39,688 nucleotides of DNA, taken from positions 1 through 39,688 of the forward strand of contig JABLXV010000030.1 in assembly GCA_013177895.1 (NCBI GenBank), given 5' to 3'. The notes beneath the pieces are model-generated. The model saw only the letters and a program-made list of their open reading frames with translations, was not told the DNA's origin and did not search any database. How positions within the stretch are numbered: the first letter of the stretch is position 1; the number at the start of each line of letters is the position of its first letter. Source of the stretch: Brevinematales bacterium. GTDB taxonomy: Bacteria; Spirochaetota; Brevinematia; Brevinematales; GWF1-51-8. The translations under genes and the position numbers were made by a program. Shown here piece after piece: positions 27,911 to 38,357 of the stretch.

Positions 27911-28417
27911 CTATTTGATATATACCCGGAGGATTTCCCCGATATACATCCGGTGGTAATCCTTTCCGTGATAGTTCTTTTCAATCGACGGGTCGAGGAA
28001 ATTCCCCGGCGCGAGGTCGTTAAAGTATATCTTTTTGCATTCCATGACGAGTTCTGCTTCGGCGAAACCTGTAGCTCCGGATTCCGAAACAATCGGGGTC
28101 AGCCCGCATTCCCGCGTCTTGTTCACATCCCTTCCCGAACGCGACCCGCAGAAATTGAGCGTATCCCGGCGGGATTCATCGAAGAAGTTCAGCGTAAACA
28201 AGTCTCCCCGCTCGATAAACTGATAGGTGAAGCGGCTGGGACGGACAAAGATTATCGCAACCGGTTTATTCCATAAAATCCCCGCGGAACCCCAGCTTGC
28301 GGTCATCATATTATGCTTCCCGACCGTGCCCGCGCCGATCAGCATCCACTGATCGCCGATCATCCTGAAAATATTCCCGGTCAACTCGCCCGGCGTAATA
28401 CTATTAAATCCCTGCAT
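27911..28417 (-). CDS. flavin reductase family protein
   Basis: A 168-residue FMN-binding split-barrel protein of the flavin reductase-like family. Typical stretches are PGELTGNIFRMIGDQWMLIGAG, KHNMMTASWGSAGILWNKPV (the FMN-contact part), FVRPSRFTYQFIERGDLFTLNFF and a short insert CGSRSGRD. Such proteins reduce or bind FMN with NAD(P)H and often support monooxygenases or flavoredoxin-type electron transfer. The ATG follows GAGG and lies nine bases after the stop of the upstream lipoprotein, so the two form an operon. No partner oxygenase is nearby. Confidence 0.9.
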   Translation of the reverse strand: MQGFNSITPGELTGNIFRMIGDQWMLIGAGTVGKHNMMTASWGSAGILWNKPVAIIFVRPSRFTYQFIERGDLFTLNFFDESRRDTLNFCGSRSGRDVNKTRECGLTPIVSESGATGFAEAELVMECKKIYFNDLAPGNFLDPSIEKNYHGKDYHRMYIGEILRVYIK

Positions 28418-28425
28418 ATTCGCCT

Positions 28426-29103
28426 CTAATTCGCTAAATAGATCTGGTACTCTTTCGTGATCAGGTTCTGCTGGCTGTCGCGGTCGGTTTTATATACCGC
28501 GAACAGGTATTCGCCCTCGGGATACCCCGAAAGGTCGAGGTTCATCGACGGTTTCTGTACGGCCTGCCGGAATACCAATTCCTTCCCGGGGCTGTAAATT
28601 TCAAGGACATAGTTGTATCCCTTCTCGCATCCGCCGAAATACACGGTGAGCGGGGAGTTTTTCAGACGGCTGATGGTCTCGAACGGGTAGACGCTCAGGT
28701 TGCCCTTCAATTTCTTCATATCGAAATTGTTATAGACATAGCTGGCGCCGCTTTTCGTTTCGATGACCAGTTCGAGTTTCTTTTTCAGTACGGAAAGGCT
28801 TTTTATCGGGGTCTGGATGTAAATCAGGTTTTTATTCTCATAGGAGTAGGAGAGGTCGCCGGCCCCGGATTTCATCGCGATCAGTTTGCCGCCGGACAAG
28901 ACTTTAATGGCAGTTACATCGTTCCATAAATTCTGCCGCGCGTCAATCCAGAAACCCAGAACGGTTTCACGCGAAAGGTTATTATACCGTATCCGGTAAC
29001 CGTACTCGACATGAAACTCCGCGCTATTCAGCTCGATTTTCGACCCGCAGCCGGATAACAGAAATATCCCCGCGACGAATAATAAATTTAGAATTCTCCG
29101 CAT
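28426..29103 (-). CDS. putative lipoprotein, unknown function
   Basis: A 225-residue envelope lipoprotein: signal peptide MRRILNLLFVAGIFLLSGC with Cys19 as lipidation site (standard LSGC lipobox). The mature part looks like beta-rich, immunoglobulin-like strands with no known motif: SAEFHVEYGYRIRYNNLSRE, then a region of Lys/Leu-rich strands and PEGEYLFAVYKTDRDSQQNL near the end. GGAG lies six bases upstream. It is followed after nine bases by the flavin reductase gene. The upstream 174 bases contain a possible leftward promoter (TTGAAA, 18-base spacer, TAATAA). Confidence 0.75.
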   Translation of the reverse strand: MRRILNLLFVAGIFLLSGCGSKIELNSAEFHVEYGYRIRYNNLSRETVLGFWIDARQNLWNDVTAIKVLSGGKLIAMKSGAGDLSYSYENKNLIYIQTPIKSLSVLKKKLELVIETKSGASYVYNNFDMKKLKGNLSVYPFETISRLKNSPLTVYFGGCEKGYNYVLEIYSPGKELVFRQAVQKPSMNLDLSGYPEGEYLFAVYKTDRDSQQNLITKEYQIYLAN

Positions 29104-29277: not shown

Positions 29278-29553
29278 TTAATCCTTGAAAGCGATGGATT
29301 TCCCCTCGGAGAACGCCTTCGCAACCTTTTTCCGCGCTCTGTCGTATATTCTCGTTAAAGTTGGACGGGAAACGCCCATCTTTTCGGCGGCTTCTTCCTG
29401 AAAAAGGTCTTCGTAGTCGCAGAGACGAATCGCTTCATACTCTTCCATCAGAAGACGGACTTCATCTTTGGGATCGGCCTTTTCTCCAATCGGCTTAAAT
29501 CCCGTAACTGTCGGAGGCCCCTGGATCTTCCTCGGTTTCTTCTGTCTTGACAT
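29278..29553 (-). CDS. DUF134 family helix-turn-helix protein
   Basis: A 91-residue small DNA-binding protein of the DUF134 family. The N-terminus is rich in Arg/Lys (MSRQKKPRKIQGPP) and the core has a sigma-factor region-4-like helix-turn-helix (LMEEYEAIRLCDYEDLFQEEAAEKMGVSRPTLTRIYDRAR). Members often lie beside dinitrogenase iron-molybdenum cofactor (NifX-like) proteins, absent here. The start is the ATG at 29553: it has GAGGTAGG upstream, and the alternative ATG at 29577 lies within the upstream gene. It follows the GGDEF-nitroreductase gene by 13 bases and is probably in its operon. Confidence 0.88.
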   Translation of the reverse strand: MSRQKKPRKIQGPPTVTGFKPIGEKADPKDEVRLLMEEYEAIRLCDYEDLFQEEAAEKMGVSRPTLTRIYDRARKKVAKAFSEGKSIAFKD

Positions 29554-29566
29554 ATACGCACCTACC

Positions 29567-31498
29567 TCATGAAACATTATTTTCTTTGTCTCTTTTCCCC
29601 CATTTATTTGAAAAAACCCTATCCTTATTGTATCTGTTGGCGGGCGGTTTGTAAACCGCGGGATATCCGATAGGTATCAGCGCGAACGGGATAATCTGTT
29701 CGGGGATACCCATGAGCTTGCGAAGCCCCTCGACCCGATCCTCACGGGGATAAACTCCCAGCCATACCGCGCCGAAACCGAGCGTCTGTACCTCTATCAG
29801 CATATTCTCAACTGCCGCGGAACAGTCCTGCACCCAGTATCCCTTGTGTTTCTCAAGGGAGGGGTCTCCGCAGACCAGTATCGCTACCGGCGCTTCCAGT
29901 ATCATGTTTGAGTGGGGATGGATGCCGGGCACCTGATCGAGGATAGCCCGGTCGTCGATAACAATGAAGTGCCAAGGCTGTTGATTTCCCGCGGATGGAG
30001 CCGCCATCGCGGCACGAAGCAGGGTCTCGATCGCCTCGCTCGGAATACTTTCCCTCCGGTAATGCCGGATACTGCGGCGGTTGAAAATCGCGCAAAAAGC
30101 CGGCGATTCTTCATCGCTATTATTATAACATAAGCCATCAATATTTTGAAATATTTCTTTGGAATCCGCATCTTTTTTTATTTTAACCGGCGTGTCTTTT
30201 ATAAAAACTTCGACCCGGTTTCTGCCGCTGTCTTTCGCATAATACAACGCGTTATCGGCGCGTTTGATCAATTCGTCGACGCTCTCGCTGCCGATCAGGT
30301 GAGTGACCCCGAAACTACAGGTGAGAGTCCCGATATTATCGATATCCAACTGCGCGATTTTTACCCGCAGACGTTCCGCGATCAGCGCCGCTTCCGCTAT
30401 AGGGGTCTCCGGCAGACAGAGGATAAATTCCTCGCCCCCGTATCGGCCGAACACGTCGGTTGCGCGGATACTCTGACGGACGAGTTTGACTATCTGGAGG
30501 ATTGCCTTATCGCCGGTCTGGTGGCCGTAAGTATCGTTGATACGCTTGAACAAATCGATATCGAACATGATGAGCGCCAGCGGGTGCTGGTAACGGGTGC
30601 TGCGCTGGATTTCAGTTAATAACACGTCCAGAAACTTCTTCCGGTTATAGATACGGGTCATCGAGTCCTTCATGGATAGTTCGTGATACAGCGATTTGAT
30701 AGTTTCCAGCAGGGTGATGTCCGTAAACGAAAGCAGGTAAAACCCGCTATCCGGCATGACAGTCACATGTACGAGAAACGTATGCGTCTCATCCTCGGGG
30801 TCGTTGGCTCCGCTGAGATACATGGTAAAATCGAGATCCGGGTGCTGCACAATCTCCCCGAACCAATCGGCAAACTTTTTCTTTTCGTAAAAATCCCCGT
30901 CTTTAGCGACCAGAAAATCATCGATTGTTTTTCCGCTTTTCTGGTAATCGATATAAGAATTGAAGCCTAAAAAGTCGAGAAATGTTTTATTCAGCTTGGT
31001 GATTTCCTGCCCGTCGGTAATCAGGAGGAGAGACGGAATCACATCCATAATCGTCTGGATGAGACGGTTGCCGCGGTCGATGGATTTCCGTTCGCTGTTC
31101 AGGATAGCGAGTTTTTCCATCGCGGAAATCAACCTGTTCTGGTCGATAGGTTTTTTCAGGTAATTATCGACATTCAGCTCAATCGCCTCGAGAAGAAACT
31201 CCTCATCGTTATGCCCGCTCGTAATGATGATGGGCGTGTTACTGGTCTTGCGGATTTCGTGGATCATGTCAAGCCCGTTGAGTTCGGGCATTCGGATGTC
31301 GGTGATAACGATATCGGGTTTCTTGTCCCTGAATACCGACAGGCCTTCCTTTCCGTCGGAGGCCACATAAATCTCTTTTACCCGGCGTTTCAGGATTCTC
31401 TCCATGCTGGAACGGACTACTTCCTCGTCCTCCACGAAAAGAACGGTCATCTCCCTCAGGAAATTACCGTGCGAATTAGTTAAATCTATTTTATTCAT
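29567..31498 (-). CDS. REC-PAS-GGDEF diguanylate cyclase fused to a nitroreductase
   Basis: A 643-residue fusion. Residues 18-130 form a receiver domain with phospho-acceptor Asp67 (IVITDIRMP); about 145-265 a PAS-like domain; 275-432 a GGDEF diguanylate cyclase with FDIDLFKRIND, the active-site GGEEF at 354-358 and an intact I-site RxxD (Arg345-Asp348) five residues before it. After a 40-residue linker, residues 472-634 form a nitroreductase domain (RRSIRHYRRESIP, AAPSAGNQQPWHFIV, APVAILVCGD, QTLGFGAVWLGVY), which should bind FMN. The frame is open across the junction and the linker has no in-frame Met. The combination suggests redox or flavin input to c-di-GMP signalling. The promoter puts the start site on or beside the first ATG. 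Confidence 0.93.
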   Translation of the reverse strand: MNKIDLTNSHGNFLREMTVLFVEDEEVVRSSMERILKRRVKEIYVASDGKEGLSVFRDKKPDIVITDIRMPELNGLDMIHEIRKTSNTPIIITSGHNDEEFLLEAIELNVDNYLKKPIDQNRLISAMEKLAILNSERKSIDRGNRLIQTIMDVIPSLLLITDGQEITKLNKTFLDFLGFNSYIDYQKSGKTIDDFLVAKDGDFYEKKKFADWFGEIVQHPDLDFTMYLSGANDPEDETHTFLVHVTVMPDSGFYLLSFTDITLLETIKSLYHELSMKDSMTRIYNRKKFLDVLLTEIQRSTRYQHPLALIMFDIDLFKRINDTYGHQTGDKAILQIVKLVRQSIRATDVFGRYGGEEFILCLPETPIAEAALIAERLRVKIAQLDIDNIGTLTCSFGVTHLIGSESVDELIKRADNALYYAKDSGRNRVEVFIKDTPVKIKKDADSKEIFQNIDGLCYNNSDEESPAFCAIFNRRSIRHYRRESIPSEAIETLLRAAMAAPSAGNQQPWHFIVIDDRAILDQVPGIHPHSNMILEAPVAILVCGDPSLEKHKGYWVQDCSAAVENMLIEVQTLGFGAVWLGVYPREDRVEGLRKLMGIPEQIIPFALIPIGYPAVYKPPANRYNKDRVFSNKWGKRDKENNVS

Positions 31499-31503
31499 AA
31501 TAC

Positions 31504-31532
31504 AATTTAAAAGGCAATCGGTCTTTTGTCAA
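31504..31532 (-). promoter_or_regulatory. promoter of the GGDEF-nitroreductase gene
   Basis: Read leftward: TTGACA (31532-31527), 17-base spacer, TAAATT (31509-31504), then five bases to the ATG at 31498. The start site is predicted at the ATG, so the message may be leaderless; an in-frame ATG at 31450 after GAGGGAG is an alternative start. Confidence 0.65.
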
Positions 31533-31575: not shown

Positions 31576-33111
31576 TTATTCCGTCTGTTCGAATACGAAC
31601 GTACTGATATCGTCCTCAAACACATCGGCGCCGGATTTATTTTTTAAGTCGGCGATGATAGCCTCGATCATATCGGGGGGCGGCATTTTCAGCTTTTTAT
31701 TCACCAAGTCGCGGATATAATTCACGCCCAGCAGGTTACCGTTCTTAGCGTCCTGTATCTCGAATAACCCGTCCGTAAAGAGAAACACCCTATCGTTCGG
31801 CTTCAATTTTATCTGGTCGGTATCCCAACGGCGCTGGGGGATAATCGGCGAAATAAAACTGCTCTTTTTGCCGATAATCTCGGCCTTTTTATCGTTATAG
31901 ATAATAAACGGCGGATGCCCGGCGCGGGTATAGTATAAGGTCCGCTCGTCGGGATCGATCAACATGACGGACATGGTAATAAAATATCCCTCGATCAGGT
32001 AATCCTGTATTTCCGCGGCGACTTTCTCCAATAGACTGAGAGTATCGATCACCCCGGCGAGTATCGTCTTGATGATGCCGCGCAGGAGGAATGTGAATAA
32101 CGCCGCGATCAGCCCATGGCCGGAGACGTCCCCGGATATAATAAATATCAGCGAATCGACGTTGATAATCTCCAGGTAATCCCCGCCGATTTCTTCGCAT
32201 GGGATATAACGGGTATAGATACGGTAGTTTTTTTCAGTGATAATATCCGGGGGTTCCAATGACTGCTGGAGACGCGCGGCGAACAGGAGTTCGGTTTTTA
32301 TCTTTTCGTTGTACGCCCTCAGTTTGTTCTGCACCTCGCGCTGTTCGGTGATATCCTGAAGGATCACGAGGTATCCCGCCTGATCCGTCTGGAGCTGATT
32401 AATAACTATGGAATAATAGTTGATGCAGTTATTATTGGAAAGGGTTTTTAGTTTACAGAAGTCGATCGTTTTCTCGAATTTTACCGAGCCCTTCTGTTCC
32501 AGTGTATCCAGCAATTCGGGGTTGACGAACGGGGCGTCCCCGAGGCGATAGGCGCGAAGTTTCCCGATATCGTCGATACCGAAAAACTGGAGCAGGGCGT
32601 CGTTAGCGAAGTCCAGCGTCCCGTCCGCCTCATACAGGGCGATACCCATCGGGGACTGGGAATAAATACTCTTCAGCCGGGTCTCGTTTTCCTTGGATTC
32701 GCGCACCAGCTTATGCCGTTCCATCGCGTAGTTGATCGAACGGAGCAGGATGTTCTCGTTGATCTGTCCCTTCACGAGGAAATCCTGCGCGCCGAGCTTC
32801 ACCGCTTCCATCGCGATCGTATCGTCGTTCAGACCGGTCAGCAGAATAGTGGGGATTTGATAAACATACCTGACGATTCGTTTAAACGTATCCAGGCCGC
32901 GGCTGTCCGGTAGGAAGAGGTCGAGCAGGATAAGATCGTAGGTATTTTTCGCGAAATCCTGCTCCGCGTCCTTGATGGAAAAAAACTCCCGTATCTGGAA
33001 AAATACCGGTACGGATGCGTTCTGCTGGGAGTTTTGGAGCATCTCCTTCAATAAAAACGCGTCGTGGGCATTATCCTCCACAACCGCGATGCGCAATTCA
33101 CGGATTTCCAT
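31576..33111 (-). CDS. REC-PAS-PP2C (RsbU/SpoIIE-type) phosphatase
   Basis: A 511-residue response-regulator phosphatase. The receiver domain (about 7-125) has the phospho-acceptor in LILLDLFLPD; a PAS domain follows (about 140-260: SPMGIALYEADGTLDFAN, VILQDITEQR), then a coiled coil (LRAYNEKIKTELLFAARLQQS) and a SpoIIE phosphatase domain with the Mn-binding Asp motifs (EEIGGDYLE, SGDVSGHG, RAGHPPF, LFTDGLFE, EDDISTF). It probably dephosphorylates a Ser-phosphorylated anti-sigma antagonist when the receiver is phosphorylated. The start is the ATG at 33111 after AGGA. Its stop is 77 bases upstream of the GGDEF gene start. A TTGACA-type promoter with an inverted repeat lies upstream. No kinase partner is in the window. 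Confidence 0.92.
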   Translation of the reverse strand: MEIRELRIAVVEDNAHDAFLLKEMLQNSQQNASVPVFFQIREFFSIKDAEQDFAKNTYDLILLDLFLPDSRGLDTFKRIVRYVYQIPTILLTGLNDDTIAMEAVKLGAQDFLVKGQINENILLRSINYAMERHKLVRESKENETRLKSIYSQSPMGIALYEADGTLDFANDALLQFFGIDDIGKLRAYRLGDAPFVNPELLDTLEQKGSVKFEKTIDFCKLKTLSNNNCINYYSIVINQLQTDQAGYLVILQDITEQREVQNKLRAYNEKIKTELLFAARLQQSLEPPDIITEKNYRIYTRYIPCEEIGGDYLEIINVDSLIFIISGDVSGHGLIAALFTFLLRGIIKTILAGVIDTLSLLEKVAAEIQDYLIEGYFITMSVMLIDPDERTLYYTRAGHPPFIIYNDKKAEIIGKKSSFISPIIPQRRWDTDQIKLKPNDRVFLFTDGLFEIQDAKNGNLLGVNYIRDLVNKKLKMPPPDMIEAIIADLKNKSGADVFEDDISTFVFEQTE

Positions 33112-33146
33112 CGGCATTCCTGAACGTTTATTAAAATACTTGTATT

Positions 33147-37403: not shown

Positions 37404-38357
37404 TTAGTTCTGCACCAGCCCCATGAGCGGACGGTAGAACCATACCTGCCCGGACGTCTTATTATTCAAATCGAGCTCCGATACGGTCACGACCTTCGTG
37501 TTAAACACGTTCTGGTGCGCCAACTGGTAATGCAGTTTGCCGAGCACCTTATAGACTATCGCGGTATGATCGGGGCTCCCGTAGGTCTCCCATGCCGTAC
37601 CGTTCTTGGTCGCATAGGTGACTTTCACCGTCTTGAACTGGACGATATCGCCGGGAAGCACCTCGTCCTTAGACGGGTCTAACGGCATCCCGAATCCGGT
37701 CGTCCTCGTCCAATCTGCGCTGAGCATATCCAGCGCGGCCTGCGCCAAATCCCAGCATTCGCCGCGCCCGACAGTCTGCCCGATATGCGCGTTGACGAAA
37801 TCGATGATATACGGGTTGAGCGAGAGTTTCTGGATATCCTTCGGCGCGTCCGCCTGCGAATTGATATTGAACGCGAGGAGAGCCTGGAACGTCTGGGAGT
37901 CCGGGTCGTCCGCCGCGAACAGGGTCACCTTATAGTCACCCGCGCCGTCCTTGAGGATATAGTACAGGCTGAAGTTACCGTCCCATCCGGGGGTGAATTT
38001 CAGGTCGTGCGTCTTGCCGCCGGGCTTCCCTACCTGTACCCACAGGATTTTATACTTTGTCCATCCCGCGATCGGGAGGGAGTACCCGATTTTCGCCGGG
38101 ACGGGCTGGAGTTTCACGGTGTTCTCGCCGCCGATATAGGTCTGCATCTTGACGGTCAGGTTATTCTTATACGTATCGTAATCGAACGGGATGGGGGACT
38201 GTACCGCCTTCCCGGTCTTTTGCGCGATGAGGTCGAAATCCTCGGTCTGCTTCTGCGATGGCGCGTTCTTTTCCTCTTTCCCTTTGACGGCCTGCCCCCC
38301 GCATGAGGAAAGCACAGCCAACGCGGCGACGGTAAATAGGACGGATAGTTTTTTCAT
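37404..38357 (-). CDS. lipoprotein with a papain-like (NlpC/CHAP or BBC1/AIM3-like) C-terminal domain
   Basis: A 317-residue envelope lipoprotein: signal peptide MKKLSVLFTVAALAVLSSC with Cys19 as lipidation site. Residues about 55-165 form a beta-rich N-terminal domain of unknown type; residues about 185-310 look like a cysteine-peptidase fold: Cys201 in GRGECWDLAQAAL, PGDIVQF, His264 in PDHTAIVY and LAHQN (281-283). The pattern (GECWD...PGD...DHTAIV) is close to the BBC1/AIM3 cysteine-proteinase-fold domain and related to NlpC/P60 and CHAP. A hydrolase acting on peptide or cell-wall bonds is possible, but the catalytic set should be checked. It has its own TTGACA-17-TAATAT promoter and GGGGGCG site. 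Confidence 0.78.
   Translation of the reverse strand: MKKLSVLFTVAALAVLSSCGGQAVKGKEEKNAPSQKQTEDFDLIAQKTGKAVQSPIPFDYDTYKNNLTVKMQTYIGGENTVKLQPVPAKIGYSLPIAGWTKYKILWVQVGKPGGKTHDLKFTPGWDGNFSLYYILKDGAGDYKVTLFAADDPDSQTFQALLAFNINSQADAPKDIQKLSLNPYIIDFVNAHIGQTVGRGECWDLAQAALDMLSADWTRTTGFGMPLDPSKDEVLPGDIVQFKTVKVTYATKNGTAWETYGSPDHTAIVYKVLGKLHYQLAHQNVFNTKVVTVSELDLNNKTSGQVWFYRPLMGLVQN

Follow-up and report, generated by a model that had tools for sequence, protein, structure and literature searches.

A predicted response-regulator diguanylate cyclase carrying a C-terminal nitroreductase domain in a genus of Brevinematales

Where an enzymatic partner follows a GGDEF domain in the same polypeptide, it is usually a phosphodiesterase domain. 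The switching of REC-GGDEF proteins is known to run through phosphorylation of the REC domain, a shift in coiled-coil register and an encounter of the GGDEF domains, and in Leptospira DgcR it is phosphorylation that activates the REC-GGDEF dimer (PMC8041772). Redox control of c-di-GMP enzymes has been described for AxDGC2, RmcA and CdgF, where it is provided by flavin PAS domains (PMC8846402); nitroreductases, for their part, are typically homodimers with FMN held at the interface (PMC10404671, PMC8484813).

Here we describe a gene in which a response-regulator cyclase and a nitroreductase-like domain (NTR) share one reading frame. In the window, by which we mean the whole 39,688-nucleotide stretch of DNA analysed, one open frame (29567-31498, minus strand) encodes 643 residues uninterrupted by any stop, and all four Pfam domain matches within it exceed their curated cut-offs. 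Translation and Pfam thereby bear out the initial annotation, which had read REC-PAS-GGDEF followed by a nitroreductase in one frame and had placed the RATD and GGEEF motifs exactly where they are found. The arrangement is conserved in relatives: two sisters in a GTDB-based collection carry the whole fusion in the same gene order, namely L004 (Brevinematales bacterium MAG, 82% identity) and L005 (Spirochaetes bacterium GWF1_51_8, 67% identity), which correspond to genomes G007 and G006, of the same genus, in the order-wide search. Gene-joining errors are common in metagenome assemblies, a point in favour of reading the fusion as an assembly or annotation artefact in which a sequencing error joins two separate genes, and the initial annotation had itself allowed for split genes in relatives and an error at about 30090-30190. 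However, the frame is continuous across the GGDEF-NTR junction (LCYNN-DEE--PALCAIFNRRSIRHYR) in both further genome assemblies, and the identical frame and junction in three syntenic assemblies with conserved flanking genes exclude such an error, leaving the artefact a vanishingly small probability. The features of the gene are as follows.

29567..31498, minus strand: whole fusion gene, REC-PAS-GGDEF-linker-nitroreductase (frame, Pfam, full-length orthologues in two sisters)
31118..31444, minus strand: REC domain, residues 19-127 (Pfam Response_reg, 2.3e-27)
30917..31063, minus strand: PAS-like domain, Pfam core at residues 146-194 (PAS_8, 1.4e-05)
30215..30670, minus strand: GGDEF diguanylate cyclase domain, residues 277-428 (Pfam, 4.3e-43)
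30455..30466, minus strand: inhibitory I-site RATD, residues 345-348 (motif inspection)
30425..30439, minus strand: active-site motif GGEEF, residues 354-358 (motif inspection)
30101..30190, minus strand: disordered linker, residues 437-466 (about 30 residues, pLDDT <50, least conserved internal segment)
29597..30100, minus strand: nitroreductase domain, residues 467-634 (Pfam, 7.9e-26, match from 472)

On motif inspection, the REC domain (PF00072, 95.8 bits) keeps the acidic pair E23/D24, the phospho-acceptor D67 (in DIRMP), S94 and K116-Pro; with acidic pair, acceptor aspartate, serine and lysine all in place, the fusion is classed by sequence as a response regulator. Behind it, a PAS-like fold spans about residues 140-261 as alpha/beta elements in the AlphaFold model. 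The GGDEF domain scores 147 bits against PF00990 (cut-off 23.8) and also stands above the cut-off of NCBIfam TIGR00254; its GGEEF motif is unchanged across all three species, and the I-site reads RTTD and RTED in the sisters. By profile and motif this half is assigned to the diguanylate cyclases and is predicted to synthesise c-di-GMP. Outside the NTR, the best Foldseek matches of the model are WspR, PleD and DgcR. Because the window genome holds ten PilZ matches, it likely encodes receptors for the second messenger.

The C-terminal domain scores 91.7 bits against PF00881 (cut-off 23.5) and shows the motifs RRSIR (474-478), PSAGNQQPWHF (501-511), QDCSAA (557-562) and GAVWLG (576-581) together with R622, so that profile and conserved FMN-pocket motifs place it in the nitroreductase superfamily. 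Its closest relatives in the PDB by sequence are 3kwk (6.5e-44), 3m5k and 3e10 (E-values of 1e-40 to 1e-44), and the modelled domain matches 3kwk at 1.4 A rmsd and a TM of 0.94 of target (Foldseek). Across 45 stand-alone relatives, 50 positions are conserved at 90% or more. All three fusions are identical at 46 of these; among the other four, 512, 540 and 575 carry conservative swaps (I/V or L/F), and H629 is a real replacement. As an FMN reductase, this half is apparently intact.

The AlphaFold monomer (mean pLDDT 82.5) folds every domain confidently and falls below a pLDDT of 50 only at residues 1-11, 437-466 and 640-643; its pTM of 0.40 makes the relative placement of the domains uninformative, and in the alignment behind it a small GGDEF tail is misaligned in three rows. 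Since the linker is both of low confidence and the least conserved internal segment, rigid signal transfer between GGDEF and NTR is disfavoured, and the model argues for a flexible tether. The linker motif CY..(x)EE.PxxCAI is kept in the three species, with Cys457 at the linker end and Cys469 at the NTR start invariant in the three fusions; this could mean a specific role, for instance as a cysteine redox pair. Between codons 429 and 473 the window linker holds no in-frame ATG, GTG or TTG, which upholds the earlier claim that the window gene makes one product and sets aside a separate NTR product by internal initiation. The accompanying argument from a missing in-frame Met stands for the window but not as a general rule, as L005, alone of the three, has an in-frame ATG in its linker (KT-M-CYTTG). 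Also within the linker lies an extended -10 type promoter match, TTCAAA-N17-TATAAT (30150-30122, minus strand), whose -10 is present in L004 and missing in L005. The next ATG after it (30114) belongs to a different frame from the NTR; on these two counts we set aside a separate NTR product driven from this site. The match could be a relic of a once-separate NTR gene, or chance.

We propose, and give about an even chance to, a phosphorylation-controlled diguanylate cyclase covalently joined to a functional FMN reductase, the homodimer of which helps keep two cyclase chains together. A histidine kinase would phosphorylate Asp67, and the REC signal would pass along long helices via the PAS-like domain to the GGDEF domain, where c-di-GMP would be made, subject to product inhibition at the RxxD site by analogy with WspR, PleD and DgcR. 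Since a PAS-like domain separates REC from GGDEF, signal transfer would not strictly be the DgcR case. At the other end, the NTR would act as a working FMN enzyme, using NAD(P)H on a small acceptor, and would dimerise around two FMN pockets as its relatives do. Combining REC-GGDEF switching with NTR homodimers, the holo-protein would be a dimer joined at both its cyclase end and its NTR end, in which the flexible linker of about 30 residues ties the reductase to the cyclase without rigid coupling. The main gain from fusion would then be fixed stoichiometry, co-localisation and cyclase dimerisation. We infer the phosphorylation, both activities, the NTR dimerisation and the functional benefit, that of co-localisation solely because no sign of rigid coupling is seen.

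The initial annotation had suggested that redox state might be coupled to c-di-GMP, or that c-di-GMP might control the oxidoreductase. It is possible, though in our view unlikely, that the NTR is a redox or metabolite sensor, in which reduction of FMN by NAD(P)H or a ligand at the dimer interface alters how the two GGDEF domains meet and thereby links the redox state of the cell directly to c-di-GMP synthesis. Flavin-based redox control of c-di-GMP enzymes does exist (AxDGC2, RmcA and CdgF; PMC8846402), the two halves stay joined in three species and Cys457 and Cys469 are invariant among them; but the known redox sensors in that review use other domains, the NTR sits C-terminally behind a disordered linker, and its active site stays enzyme-like with no decay to a binding module. 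A more specific form, which we would rate slightly lower still, makes the NTR dimer an internal sensor of redox state or NAD(P)H, placed C-terminal to the GGDEF domains and gating their synthesis of c-di-GMP from that side. Control may conceivably run the other way, with c-di-GMP made by the GGDEF domain or bound at the I-site controlling the NTR, such that the flavoenzyme would be a regulated two-component output. The reductase does occupy the C-terminal end, the usual output place of a response regulator, and the I-site is intact; yet no c-di-GMP-binding motif was noticed in the NTR, the linker is flexible in the AlphaFold model, and with GGEEF kept the GGDEF domain looks fully active and not like a degenerate receptor, all of which leaves this a decidedly slim prospect.

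To return to the cyclase tethered to a working reductase, both of its halves appear to be under selection. Between the window and L004, a pair in which dS is about 1 or saturated (saturated in REC), dN/dS is 0.07 in the PAS-like domain, 0.06 in GGDEF and 0.09 in the NTR, whereas the linker reaches 0.19 and the short C-tail (last nine residues) 0.72; for this pair, purifying selection on the NTR is thus estimated to be nearly as strong as on GGDEF. Among NTR amino acids, 75-82% are kept despite high to saturated synonymous divergence.

The initial annotation had called a C-terminal flavoenzyme on a GGDEF protein unusual, a judgement that holds up across the genomes, plasmids and literature searched. 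No other single frame with both domains was returned by a GGDEF plus NTR query of 1,926 genomes from six phyla (393 Spirochaetota; 300 from the phylum of Heliorestis; 317 and 319 from the phyla of Desulfogranum and a Rhodospirillales-labelled bin; 296 and 301 from those of a Nitrospirae bacterium and a Dehalococcoides-labelled bin), a scan that scored the top few candidates per genome under strict thresholds and that strongly diverged fusions could escape. Plasmid records likewise gave no convincing GGDEF-NTR fusion, the widest matches being annotated GGDEF/EAL proteins, and the combination of diguanylate cyclase and nitroreductase domain is undescribed in the literature searched. The other NTR relatives among 80 loci stand alone, each being about 165-200 residues long, and have at most spurious upstream extensions: the long frames of L119-L122 were rejected as NTR fusions, their N-terminal extensions being spurious and non-coding, and L137-L139 are stand-alone NTRs. 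At L123 (G304, ORF 901-2037), a QueH-like (epoxyqueuosine reductase) sequence is immediately followed, in the same frame, by a related NTR that has a Met just ahead of it; this is either a fusion or a pair of adjacent genes.

A tree of NTR sequences puts the three fusions in one clade (support 100/99), nested in a group (96/88) where they are joined by stand-alone NTRs, mainly from other Spirochaetota. Because the fusions make up one supported clade among stand-alone NTRs, the tree fits a single fusion in the common ancestor of the genus. Such an event might have been neutral and of operon type, the cyclase stop being lost and the frame reading on into an NTR gene, so that only co-expression couples the halves. 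A related, unfused REC-PAS-GGDEF protein in the same-order genome G008 stops exactly where the linker begins (GKNRVEK-stop), NTR relatives are otherwise stand-alone, and suitable neighbours do arise, as at L137 (G1456, Nitrospirota), where a GAF-GGDEF-like gene comes about 22 nt past the stop codon of a stand-alone NTR gene (61%) and shares its direction and frame. Against a neutral origin, the fusion has persisted in three species whose synonymous divergence is high to saturating, and part of its junction is conserved; had it been neutral, splitting or loss of one half somewhere would be expected. Moreover, a GGDEF gene lies nearby at only 2 of about 100 NTR loci, not above a rough chance estimate, and we reject an ancestral NTR-GGDEF operon on this count. 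We regard neutral fusion as improbable. The architecture is best described, from the sequences at hand, as a known type of protein, the response-regulator diguanylate cyclase, to which a new C-terminal enzyme has been added, and it is confined as far as seen to one genus.

The surroundings of the gene are as follows.

31504..31532, minus strand: promoter-like TTGACA-N17-TAAATT, ending 5 nt before the ATG (31498)
31576..33117, minus strand: upstream neighbour, REC-PAS-SpoIIE (PP2C-type) phosphatase response regulator (Pfam; all three species)
29278..29577, minus strand: downstream neighbour, DUF134 small sigma-70-region-4-like protein (Pfam; all three species)
28426-29103: lipoprotein-like gene, between the DUF134 and flavin-reductase-like genes
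27911..28417, minus strand: flavin-reductase-like protein (Pfam Flavin_Reduct; synteny)

The promoter-like sequence keeps the same spacing from -10 to ATG in the three species, the intergenic DNA around it being otherwise diverged, and no clear Shine-Dalgarno sequence is seen upstream of the fusion ATG in any of them. Since the -10 ends so close to the ATG, transcription probably starts at or next to it, giving a leaderless fusion mRNA; and as the fusion has a promoter-like sequence of its own, it need not rely on the upstream phosphatase gene for expression. Two response regulators with similar N-terminal halves (REC-PAS), the phosphatase and the cyclase fusion, stand side by side, and no kinase gene was found among the scanned neighbours of the fusion. 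The order RsbU-type phosphatase, fusion, DUF134, lipoprotein-like and flavin-reductase-like gene is common to the three species, with MgsA, Thy1 and BaxI upstream of the locus in each. The DUF134 gene overlaps the fusion by 11 bp; a conserved NTR-DUF134 pairing was looked for outside the genus, and none was seen. In L060 and L036, too, flavin-reductase-like genes lie close to stand-alone NTR genes. Elsewhere in the window, 37404-38357 (minus strand) matches PF25459 (AIM3/BBC1 cysteine-proteinase fold), a fungal-named family, and is conserved in sister species. A fourth genome of the genus, G005 (73% complete), yielded no copy of the fusion; its contig ends beside MgsA (about 225 bases left), and loss of the fusion cannot be claimed there.

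A stable fusion of GGDEF with an apparently competent FMN reductase lends itself to asking, in a natural system, whether redox metabolism can be covalently wired to c-di-GMP; were the NTR indeed a sensor, it would represent a new coupling of flavoenzyme turnover to second-messenger output. In either case, we are dealing with a lineage-specific architecture long maintained in a genus represented here by environmental assemblies alone.

Set beside known systems, the locus resembles SiaABCD of Pseudomonas aeruginosa in that genes for a SpoIIE/PP2C-type phosphatase and a diguanylate cyclase lie next to each other; in contrast to SiaABCD, both window proteins are response regulators of REC-PAS type, and a promoter-like sequence of its own precedes the cyclase gene. 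SiaC (PF09345) has no match in the window genome, but the control genomes gave none either, which makes the control uninformative. With WspR, PleD and Leptospira DgcR the fusion shares a REC input, a helical stalk, the GGDEF active-site motif and an RxxD I-site, but those proteins end after GGDEF, whereas the fusion places a PAS-like domain after REC and continues past GGDEF into a linker and NTR. The stand-alone nitroreductases of about 170 residues (3kwk, 3m5k and 3e10, from Bacteroides, Parabacteroides and Clostridium) have the fold of the fusion NTR (TM 0.93-0.94, about 1.3-1.6 A); they are single-domain proteins, whereas here the NTR is the tail of a signalling protein. The ThiF-NTR protein OxzB likewise holds an NTR within a larger protein (PMC10404671), but its partner domains serve one biosynthetic pathway, while the partner here is a second-messenger enzyme. 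AxDGC2, RmcA and CdgF, finally, are like the fusion in bringing a flavin into one polypeptide with a GGDEF/EAL enzyme (PMC8846402), the FMN of the fusion being predicted; in those proteins the flavin resides in PAS domains, whereas in the fusion it is predicted to reside in a C-terminal NTR enzyme.
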